In this document: positions 7,958 to 11,924 of the stretch, one piece after another | Numbering within the stretch: the first letter of the stretch is position 1 | How the letters are laid out: each line of letters begins with the position of its first letter | DNA from: Acidobacteriota bacterium | GTDB lineage: Bacteria; Acidobacteriota; Thermoanaerobaculia; UBA5066 | Length of the DNA stretch: 33,489 bases | Direction: 5' to 3' | Assembly: GCA_030278895.1 (NCBI GenBank) | Contig: JARXKK010000024.1 | Coordinates: forward strand, 1-33,489 | The notes under the pieces: generated by a model | Database searches by the model: none | Told to the model about the DNA's origin: nothing | Seen by the model: only the letters and a program-made list of their open reading frames with translations | Program-made: the position numbers and the translations under genes

Positions 7958-8365
7958 TCAGCGCCCGCGAAGAACCTCGAGGAACTCGCGGGGTGAAACG
8001 ACCGCGACTCCGTGCCGCGCGCGCGGTGGGAAGTGCCGGAGGCTCCCCGTGACGAGGTAGTCGGCGCGAGCCGAAATCGCGACGGCGAGAAAGACCTCGT
8101 CCTTCGGATCCGGAAGGGGCGCCAGGAGGGGCTCGGCGGAAACGAACTCGCCAGTGGCCTCGACCTGAAGCAGAAGAGACTCGACCCGTGGGGGATCGAA
8201 CCCGAACCTGCGGCGTGCCAGGACCTCACGGTACTCACCGAGGATGCGTTCCTCGAGTAAGAGGGGGAGCGTGCCCGCGGCGACGAGTCCGACGATTGTC
8301 GCGGGCGGACCGAAGGACGACCAGAGCCCCGACACCAATACGTTCGTGTCGAGGACGACCCTCAA
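7958..8365 (-). CDS. PIN-domain toxin of type II toxin-antitoxin system
   Basis: MRVVLDTNVLVSGLW and PDPKDEVFLAVAISARADYLVTGS acidic PIN motifs. ATGA overlap with the upstream antitoxin. Confidence 0.88.
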   Translation of the reverse strand: MRVVLDTNVLVSGLWSSFGPPATIVGLVAAGTLPLLLEERILGEYREVLARRRFGFDPPRVESLLLQVEATGEFVSAEPLLAPLPDPKDEVFLAVAISARADYLVTGSLRHFPPRARHGVAVVSPREFLEVLRGR

Positions 8366-8649
8366 CGCGGTCGCTTGGCGCGAACGGCCTTGATTTCGGC
8401 GTTGATCTCGCGAAGGGACATCCCCTTCGGGAACCTCCGGACGGAGTCCCGCTGAATCTCCCGAACGGCCCGCACGGCGCGATCCCGGCGCAACGCGGCG
8501 AGCGTGCTCTCGAGGGACTCCTCCCCGACGCCCGTGATGATCGCCATCGGCTTGCCGTTCGAGGTCAGGATGAGGTCCTTTTCCGTCTTGAGGTCTTTCC
8601 AGACCTTCGCCGACCGGCCCCTCAGATCGCGGACTGTGACGAACTTCAT
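8362..8649 (-). CDS. Phd/YefM-type antitoxin
   Basis: MKFVTVRDLRGRSAKVWKDLKTEKDLILTSNGKPMAIITG is Phd/YefM-like; directly upstream of the PIN toxin. Confidence 0.82.
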   Translation of the reverse strand: MKFVTVRDLRGRSAKVWKDLKTEKDLILTSNGKPMAIITGVGEESLESTLAALRRDRAVRAVREIQRDSVRRFPKGMSLREINAEIKAVRAKRPR

Positions 8650-8697
8650 GACTTCACCGTCACCCAGTAGTGTGCACGATCGTCACCCGGCTCACGC

Positions 8698-9771
8698 CTA
8701 GCCGATGACTTCGATCACTTTCCCGTCGCGATCGCGGATCTCGCTCTTTACGACCCCGAATCCGGCATCGGGGACTTCGTGGAAGTCGATCTCGCCCGCG
8801 CGGGACTGCAGGGCGTCGGAGAACCGGCGGGCGAGCGCGGGCGGCAGCGTGATTCGCGCTCCATCGTCGGTGATCTCCCAGCGGGGGGAGTCCCCGGGAA
8901 CGAACACGATCGACGACGTGGAAGAGGACACCGAGAGTTCACGGCCGTGGGTGAGCCGTGCGGGAAGAACGGTCTTCAGGTCGCGGACCGCATTGGCACC
9001 GAACGTGACCGAGAGCATCCCCCTCCCGATCAGAACTTTTCTCACCAACCATTCGCAATGACCGACGAAGAGGCTCGCGGTCGAAGAGCCCTCGCGCCGT
9101 TTGCCTTCCTCGATCCGATCCGCGATCGCAAAGTTCTCGAGGATGGACCCGCGTGCGAGATCCGTCACGAGGAAAGGCGTCTTTTCCTTTACGAGTTCGA
9201 GGAATCGTTCCCCGTTCCACGCCTTGATCGCGTCGAGTTCGTCCAGTGTCACGCCGACGACCTGGAGGAATTCAAGACGTCCGTTGGGTGTCTCCATCCC
9301 GGGGAGCTCGGGGTCGACGTCGAAGATCACCGCCCGGATGGCGGTCTCGACGTTCAGAGCGATCGGGCCGTTAGCGTCCATGTAGTGCCCGCGAGCGAAC
9401 GAGTTCCCCGTGTCGAAGACGTAGCGGGCGAGGTTCTGGAGAAGGTTGAGTGCCCAGGCGGGCGGGGTGGATTCGGCGCGGGAACGCTTCAGGCGAAACG
9501 TCAGCTCAAAGCCATAGCCTGAACGTTCGAGGTCCTTCGACTCCTTCTCATAGAGCTCCGAGAACCCGAACGAGATGAAGTGCCAGTGCGGAACGGGCTC
9601 TTCTCGCGGATACGCCGAAATTCCGTCCAGGGGGTCCGGACCCCCGAGCCGGTAGTTGATGATGGAGCCCCAGTGCATAGGTTGATGGGCGCCGTAGATC
9701 GGCTGAAGAGCCGAGTTGATCGCGTCCCAGCCGGGCGTAGCTGGGTCAGCCGGATCGTCGCTTGAGTCCAC
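8698..9771 (-). CDS. Suppressor of fused (SUFU) family protein with N- and C-terminal SUFU-like regions
   Basis: NYRLGGPDPLDGISAY, PHWHFISFGFSELYE, GYGFELTFRLKR, LLQNLARYVF, LEFLQVVGV; C-terminal VTFGANAVRDLKTVLPARLTHGRELSV resembles SUFU_C. Confidence 0.93.
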   Translation of the reverse strand: MDSSDDPADPATPGWDAINSALQPIYGAHQPMHWGSIINYRLGGPDPLDGISAYPREEPVPHWHFISFGFSELYEKESKDLERSGYGFELTFRLKRSRAESTPPAWALNLLQNLARYVFDTGNSFARGHYMDANGPIALNVETAIRAVIFDVDPELPGMETPNGRLEFLQVVGVTLDELDAIKAWNGERFLELVKEKTPFLVTDLARGSILENFAIADRIEEGKRREGSSTASLFVGHCEWLVRKVLIGRGMLSVTFGANAVRDLKTVLPARLTHGRELSVSSSTSSIVFVPGDSPRWEITDDGARITLPPALARRFSDALQSRAGEIDFHEVPDAGFGVVKSEIRDRDGKVIEVIG

Positions 9772-9821
9772 TTTGGTGATTCTGAGCGAAAGTTCGGCAG
9801 AACGCCCGGTGGGGGTGTGTC

Positions 9822-11924
9822 CTAGTACGCGAGCGTCTTGCGCGCCGCCTCGACGACCCTCTCGGTATTCGGCAGGATGGCGCGCTCGAGGACGCGGTTG
9901 AAGCCGACGGGCGTGAACGTCGAGCCGACGCGGTCGACGGGCGCGTCGAGGTGCTCGAAGAGCTCCGACGCGGCGCGCGCCGCGAGCTCGCCCCCGAATC
10001 CGCCGTGAACCTTGTCCTCGTGGACGACGAGGAGGCGCGACGTCTTCTTCACCGAGGCCTGGATCGCGTCCCAGTCGAGCGGCACGAGGGAGCGAAGGTC
10101 GAGAACCTCGACGCTCTTTCCCTCTTTCGCGAGAGTCTCGGCGGCGGCCAGCGCGAAGTGCACCGGCGTGCCGTATGCGACGATCGTCAGGTCGCGGCCT
10201 TCCCGTCGGCGGCGCGCCTTCCCGAACGGCACGGCGAAGTCCACGGGCACCCGCGCCTTGGCCTGCGCGGAGTTGTAGAGGAATTTCGGTTCGAGGTACA
10301 CCGTGATGCCGCGCGAGCGCATCGAGGTCCGGAGGAGTCCCGCCGCGTCGTCCGCGAAGGCGGGAACGACGACGCGGATCCCGGGAAGCGTCGTGAGCCA
10401 GCCCTCGATGTTCTGCGAGTGGTAGAGGCCGCCCCCGATGTAGCCGCCCGAGGCGATGCGCACGGTGACGTTCGGGACGAATTGCCCGTTCGTGCGCCAG
10501 TACTCGTGCGACATCTCGACCATCTGCTCGGCCGCGGGCCAGAAGTAGTCGGCGAACTCGGCGCCTTCGACGACGATGCGGATCTTCTCGTCGAAGCGCG
10601 AGAAGCCATCGGCCGTGCCGAGGATAAAGTCCTCGGCGATCGGTCCGTTGAAAACGCGCTTCTCTCCGAACTCCTGCTGCATGCCCTTCGTGACGTTGAA
10701 GATGCCGCCCTTCTCCTTGTAGGCGACGTCCTGCCCCCAGATGTAGGTGTCGGGGTTCTCGCGGAACATCTCCTTGAGCGTCCCGTTCAGCGCCTGGATG
10801 AGGGACATCTCGGGCGCCGGCTTGCCGTCCACGGTCTCGGGCGTGACGTATGTGTCCGCGAGCCCGTCGCCCGCGGGGAGCCAGGGCTCGGGGGAGACGT
10901 GCTCGAAGATGGAGGCCGCATCGGGGTCAGGCGCGCGGCGCGCGCGGTCGGCGGATTCCTCGTAGGTCTTGAGGTTGCCGTCCTCGATCGCGGCGATCTC
11001 CGCTTCGGAGAACGCCCCGCCTTCGACGAGGGAACGGCGGAGTCGCGCCAGCGGGTCGCGCGCCTTCGCCGCCGCGAGCTCTTCGGGCGAGCGGTACAGC
11101 TCGTGCCGGTCGGAGTTGGAGTGCGAGTGGATGCGCACGCACTCGGCGTGCACCATGGCGCAGCCCGCGCCCGACCTCACGTACGCCACGGCCTCGCGCA
11201 GCGCGCGGAGCGAGTCGAAGAGATCCGTGCCGTCGCAGTGGACGATCTTGACGTTCAGGAACCCCGCGAAGTTGTCCGAGGCGAAGAGGTTCGCGGTCTG
11301 ATCGCTCTTCGGAACGGCGATCCCGTAGCCATTGTCCTGCACGACGAACACGACCGGGAGCTTCTCGCGCGACGCGCCGTTGACGGCCTCGTAGAAGTAG
11401 CCCTCGGACGTGGAGGACTCGCCCAGCGAGCAGAAGATGATCGCGTCCGACCCGTACGTCTTCACGGCGCGGCCGAGGCCCGCGGCATGCAGGGCGTGAT
11501 TCGAAACGCAGGACGAGACGTTCTGGATGTGGATCTCGGGCTTCGCGAAGTGGTTCGACATGTGGCGGCCGCCCGAAGCCACATCGTCTTTTTTCGACAT
11601 CCCGTTCAGCAGGATCTCCTCGGCCGACAGTCCGCCCGCGAGGCATGTCGTGAGGTCGCGGTAGTACGGGAAGAGATAGTCGTGCCGGGGGCGGAACGTC
11701 ACGCCGAGGGCGACCTGGATGCCGTCGTGCCCCGCGCAGGGCGCGTGATACGACCAGCCGAGACCCTGCTTGAGGTAGTTCGGAGCCTTGTCGTCGAGCA
11801 GCCGCCCGAGATGCATGAGCGCGTACCACCGCCTGAGATCGTCCCGGCTCGCGGCGAGTCTCGCGATGGTCGCGGCTTCGGACGGCGAAGCGCCCGCGGC
11901 TGTCAGGACACCCGGTTCGGCCAT
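9822..11924 (-). CDS. fused E1 alpha-beta subunit of 2-oxoacid (branched-chain type) dehydrogenase
   Basis: E1-alpha half (YHAPCAGHDGIQVALG, GGRHMSNHF, VVQDNGYGIAVP) continuous with E1-beta half (MSLIQALNGTLKEMFRENPDTYIWGQDVAYKEKGGIFNVTKGM, VNVTVRIASGGYIGGGLYHSQ region). Confidence 0.93.
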   Translation of the reverse strand: MAEPGVLTAAGASPSEAATIARLAASRDDLRRWYALMHLGRLLDDKAPNYLKQGLGWSYHAPCAGHDGIQVALGVTFRPRHDYLFPYYRDLTTCLAGGLSAEEILLNGMSKKDDVASGGRHMSNHFAKPEIHIQNVSSCVSNHALHAAGLGRAVKTYGSDAIIFCSLGESSTSEGYFYEAVNGASREKLPVVFVVQDNGYGIAVPKSDQTANLFASDNFAGFLNVKIVHCDGTDLFDSLRALREAVAYVRSGAGCAMVHAECVRIHSHSNSDRHELYRSPEELAAAKARDPLARLRRSLVEGGAFSEAEIAAIEDGNLKTYEESADRARRAPDPDAASIFEHVSPEPWLPAGDGLADTYVTPETVDGKPAPEMSLIQALNGTLKEMFRENPDTYIWGQDVAYKEKGGIFNVTKGMQQEFGEKRVFNGPIAEDFILGTADGFSRFDEKIRIVVEGAEFADYFWPAAEQMVEMSHEYWRTNGQFVPNVTVRIASGGYIGGGLYHSQNIEGWLTTLPGIRVVVPAFADDAAGLLRTSMRSRGITVYLEPKFLYNSAQAKARVPVDFAVPFGKARRRREGRDLTIVAYGTPVHFALAAAETLAKEGKSVEVLDLRSLVPLDWDAIQASVKKTSRLLVVHEDKVHGGFGGELAARAASELFEHLDAPVDRVGSTFTPVGFNRVLERAILPNTERVVEAARKTLAY

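Follow-up and report, generated by a model that had tools for sequence, protein, structure and literature searches.

The locus described here raises the question of why a bacterium should encode a relative of SUFU (Suppressor of Fused), which in animals acts as a brake on Hedgehog signalling, and what such a protein might do there. The gene concerned occupies positions 8698-9771 of a 33,489-bp stretch of Acidobacteriota DNA, in the following termed the window, which is an entire contig (JARXKK010000024.1) of a 3.47-Mb genome that is 92% complete. Profile comparison and structure prediction support the conclusion that the gene encodes a full-length, two-lobed protein of the SUFU family without the insert of the animal protein. 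A two-lobed architecture lacking this insert had already been proposed in a preliminary description of the window and now finds support in a sequence profile, a predicted structure and a search of known structures. All peptides quoted in that description are present in the minus-strand translation of the open reading frame (ORF) at 8698-9771, and the human SUFU motifs given in it agree with the human sequence in the alignment from our PDB search.

Two lobes of the window protein

The N-terminal lobe (N-lobe) is readily recognized. The Pfam profile PF05076 (SUFU), whose use had been proposed in the preliminary description, matches residues 44-207 with 150.4 bits (E=5.9e-44; curated cut-off 25 bits). 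Human and fly SUFU are the top hits in the PDB (E=1.6e-45), and in a single-sequence alignment with the human protein residues 9-287 are covered. Furthermore, the superfamily motif GxS/E/E/DxxR is present (G69xS71, E89, E178 and D204xxR207) and invariant across a five-row alignment, the matching of window residues to the published motif (PMC3482391) being our own assignment. At residues 128-132 the protein carries a GHxMD motif, the human counterpart of which is GDHVS. The sequence had been called near animal-like; this holds for the N-lobe, which is 41% identical to human SUFU, but not for the C-terminal lobe (C-lobe), where identity drops to 17%.

Pfam SUFU_C (PF12470), suggested in the same description as a check of the C-lobe, does not fire: there is no match in the window protein or its homologues, and control genomes gave no match either. 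Judged from sequence, the bacterial C-lobe is too diverged for this profile. A profile was built from 16 two-lobed bacterial SUFUs (the window protein and homologues from another genus of its phylum and from the Obscuribacterales), all 16 of which are matched by PF05076. Its alignment with human SUFU from which the insert had been deleted is continuous from position 5 to position 325 of 342 (E=8.5e-70), in agreement with the C-terminal parallel drawn earlier. In the C-lobe, the window sequence PARLTHGREL is aligned with human RGRLLHGRHF. The disordered insert (human residues 279-360) is absent from all 16 bacterial proteins in the alignment.

AlphaFold models of the window protein matched human SUFU over its full length, irrespective of whether five sequences (predicted local distance difference test, pLDDT, 74) or 16 sequences (pLDDT 86.3, predicted template modelling score, pTM, 0.84) were supplied. 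The 16-sequence model superimposes on human SUFU bound to GLI1p (4kmd) with a template modelling (TM) score of 0.80 over 371 columns that include both lobes, as the preliminary description had envisaged. TM scores were 0.55 for the N-lobe structure 1m1l and 0.62-0.68 for open forms of human SUFU; the model is thus closer to the closed, ligand-bound form. The predicted structure is a stronger case for two lobes than the sequence.

Clamp residues and the GLI pocket

In human SUFU, GLI is contacted by Tyr147, Asp159, His164, Glu376, Val269, Ala271 and Leu380, and a mutant in Arg386, Arg388, His391 and Arg393 has been described (PMC3852661). In the alignment, Tyr147 is retained in 13 and Arg388 in 15 of the 16 bacterial proteins, and His391 and Arg393 are often retained as well. 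Asp159 is found in none of the 16 and is usually replaced by His, which lies inside the bacterial GHxMD motif. There is no conservation of Glu376 and Leu380, the C-lobe columns of the alignment being less certain. The window protein has kept Tyr147 and carries His, Asn and Asn in place of Asp159, His164 and Glu376, respectively. The pocket for GLI SYGHL is, by alignment, not kept in the window protein and, taking the residue set as a whole, the bacterial two-lobed SUFUs appear to have kept the clamp but not the GLI reader. Since the Asp159/His164/Glu376 set that reads GLI SYGHL is replaced, the client would differ from GLI.

Distribution and gene neighbourhoods of two-lobed bacterial SUFUs

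The two-lobed form is not unique to the window and recurs in at least two bacterial phyla, with homologues that are 32-46% identical to the window protein over their full length. No description of two-lobed bacterial SUFUs was found in the open-access literature. In the window's class the form is present in one of 149 genomes, and none of 60 relatives of the window genome, three of the same genus included, yielded a match. Of 396 genomes sampled from the phylum, 14 encode PF05076 proteins of any type, most of them short; in one other genus of this phylum, the two-lobed form is found in all seven genomes. Eight of 53 Obscuribacterales genomes have a long SUFU match, and a single genome (G420), which carries two long paralogues, has one among 339 sampled from its own phylum. 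No relative was found in phages and IMG/VR, and plasmids yielded one single-lobed relative, in Niallia. SUFU proteins as such are unusually frequent in the Obscuribacterales, 41 of the 53 genomes having one or more hits with the SUFU profile, which in most of them are short and weaker. At the C-terminus, the tail of the window protein (GKVIEVIG, window 8698-8760) nearly agrees with that of an Obscuribacterales homologue (GEVVEVIG, L088 8888-9976), which may hint at a tail with a function or at the lineage of the donor.

The survey of gene neighbourhoods for linked toxins, another proposal of the preliminary description, covered 15 other two-lobed homologues and revealed no recognizable toxin. 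In the other genus of the window's phylum, all six loci examined show an overlap between the SUFU gene and the beginning of the glutamate racemase gene, and an HgmA-like gene usually lies upstream. The SUFU and murI reading frames share about 10-26 bp (L022 8224-10057, L023 9370-11203, L095-L098) in an operon-like arrangement, and this pairing may link SUFU to cell-wall precursor supply. In three Obscuribacterales genomes the SUFU gene adjoins a family III CoA-transferase gene and the same following gene (L094 8223-10502, L092 9101-11462, L093 9047-11350). In two further genomes of this order (L002 and L088) it is flanked by genes for a related membrane protein and VanW, and other homologues have genes for an EF-Tu-like protein (read by eye), aconitase, a histidine kinase or Tad in their vicinity.

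Gain of a single gene

The window gene is situated between a gene for a 2-oxo acid dehydrogenase E1 component, which is conserved upstream in genus and family relatives, and a Phd/PIN pair that begins 48 bp downstream on the same strand (Table 1). In G002, a genome of the same genus, the orthologous Phd/PIN pair and E1 gene are separated by 28 bp and no SUFU gene is present, that is, the site is cleanly empty. The extra segment has a guanine plus cytosine (GC) content of 62.7% compared to 67.3% for the window; at third positions the SUFU segment has a value of 0.79 versus 0.82-0.92 for most framed neighbours, the catalase gene having 0.78. Its edges carry no direct or inverted repeats of at least 8 bp, a scan for promoters and terminators found nothing and PADLOC gave no match. 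The empty site in G002 and the absence of the gene elsewhere in the class therefore indicate recent horizontal gain of a lone SUFU gene between two existing genes. Loss as the alternative would need many independent events, and the synteny of the flanks with those in genomes of the same genus led us to reject contamination of the genome bin.

Common strand and close spacing might suggest that SUFU is part of a toxin-antitoxin unit with Phd/PIN. This is highly improbable, because the arrangement in G002 refutes an obligate unit and rejects a link between the two; moreover, no such pair was recognized beside any homologue. The earlier statement that no toxin partner is visible holds for polymorphic toxins, none of which was recognized in the window, but it passed over this type II pair, shown to be unlinked by the empty site. 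Elsewhere in the genome, contig C128 carries a partly masked gene for a long Rhs-type protein (L101 2586-7988), a possible source of a toxin in trans.

Table 1. Features of the window around the SUFU gene.
Feature	Position	Strand	Remarks
Two-lobed SUFU protein (predicted)	8698..9771	(-)	357 amino acids, GTG start 9771, TAG stop 8698
N-lobe, about residues 18-210	9142..9720	(-)	SUFU domain and bacterial GHxMD motif
C-lobe (predicted), about residues 211-357	8701..9141	(-)	profile alignment, hhalign, full-length structural match
Extra segment, missing from the corresponding site of same-genus G002	8690..9821	.	1132 bp vs 28 bp
Phd/YefM-type antitoxin	8362..8649	(-)	PF02604 E=9.7e-6, 25.7 bits, below cut-off 29.8
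PIN-domain toxin, paired with Phd	7958..8365	(-)	PF13470 E=2.6e-20; TIGR00305
2-oxo acid dehydrogenase E1, fused alpha and beta	9822..11924	(-)	PF00676, PF02779, PF02780

Proposed sequestration of a client protein

On balance, we favour a strand clamp that sequesters a client protein as the best reading of the window protein. The two lobes would close around an extended segment of the client, as in human SUFU, and incorporate it as an additional strand into a sheet that extends across both lobes. Strand clamping and sequestration are what we infer, and the client could be either a toxin encoded elsewhere, which would make the protein an orphan immunity factor, or a cellular protein. Several points weigh against such a clamp. 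No client came to light in the analysis. The bulk of the profile score stems from the N-lobe, the C-lobe contributing just a few bits, and hhalign of the C-lobe alone with the human protein is weak by itself (E=4e-4, probability 34%). AlphaFold may echo human SUFU from training memory, and the closed pose is therefore no evidence for a ligand. In addition, several ORFs flanking the homologues belong to no Pfam family and the gene calls are heuristic, such that an unrecognized toxin may be among them.

The two kinds of client are versions of the clamp and about equally likely; each is a serious candidate, rated somewhat short of even, and these estimates overlap with that for the clamp itself. 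An orphan immunity protein would neutralize a polymorphic toxin that comes from outside or is encoded at a distance, in line with what has been proposed for SUFU proteins of bacteria, and its gene would spread by protecting against the toxins of neighbours. SUFU belongs to the most common immunity superfamilies and binds toxins of many types (PMC3482391), the patchy acquisition of one gene is in keeping with the traffic of immunity genes, and the window's own genome contains the Rhs-type gene. On the other hand, none of the two-lobed homologues examined has a recognizable toxin next to it, the gene is kept throughout the genus in which it overlaps the glutamate racemase gene, and Rhs repeats were undetected in two of those seven genomes. 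In the other version, the protein would be a domesticated adaptor that sequesters a cellular enzyme or transcription factor in a role comparable to that of animal SUFU: the synteny with housekeeping genes is stable in two lineages without toxins, and the clamp architecture would suit such a function. However, neighbours vary by lineage and indicate no common client, and the gain in the window's lineage is sporadic; therefore, no old client is expected there.

Origin and direction of transfer

It has been put forward that animal SUFU descends from immunity proteins that carry a SUFU domain and belong to bacterial toxin systems (PMC3482391, PMC12419801). Our trees, which contain one animal sequence (human, on a long branch), reject neither a clade made up of all bacterial proteins (p 0.59) nor a grouping of the human with the window protein (p 0.44); the human sequence sits in a poorly resolved fork with bacterial ones, and neither direction of transfer is favoured. 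Capture of the two-lobed bacterial SUFUs from animals or their relatives would agree with their patchy distribution and with the presence of the human sequence in this fork. We nevertheless regard it as quite unlikely, given the diversity of the bacterial members, the two long paralogues in G420 and the absence of the animal insert from all bacterial members. Somewhat less doubtful, if still speculative, is an old bacterial class of two-lobed SUFU clamps that would be independent of toxins and act on cellular clients, from which the animal Hedgehog brake would have been taken over with the clamp complete, insert and GLI pocket being added later. Without these two features, the bacterial proteins look like a form that animals could have recruited, and they make the questions of client binding and origin directly testable.

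Comparison with known systems

With human and Drosophila SUFU (4kmd, 4blb, 4kma) the bacterial protein shares both lobes, the order of elements, the N-lobe motifs and the residues Tyr147, Arg388, His391 and Arg393. It differs in the lack of the insert, in the changed GLI SYGHL pocket and in the absence of a Hedgehog pathway. The SUFU domain and the GxS/E/E/DxxR motif are common to the Imm-SuFu immunity proteins (PF05076; Neisseria gonorrhoeae 3k5j), but the short proteins compared (183-295 amino acids) show no match to the C-lobe, whereas the window protein possesses a C-lobe and has no toxin neighbour. A third group of close counterparts comprises the two-lobed SUFUs of the Obscuribacterales and of the other genus of the same phylum, which likewise have both lobes and no insert; several of these are encoded in conserved synteny with glutamate racemase or CoA-transferase genes, whereas the window gene is a lone insertion.
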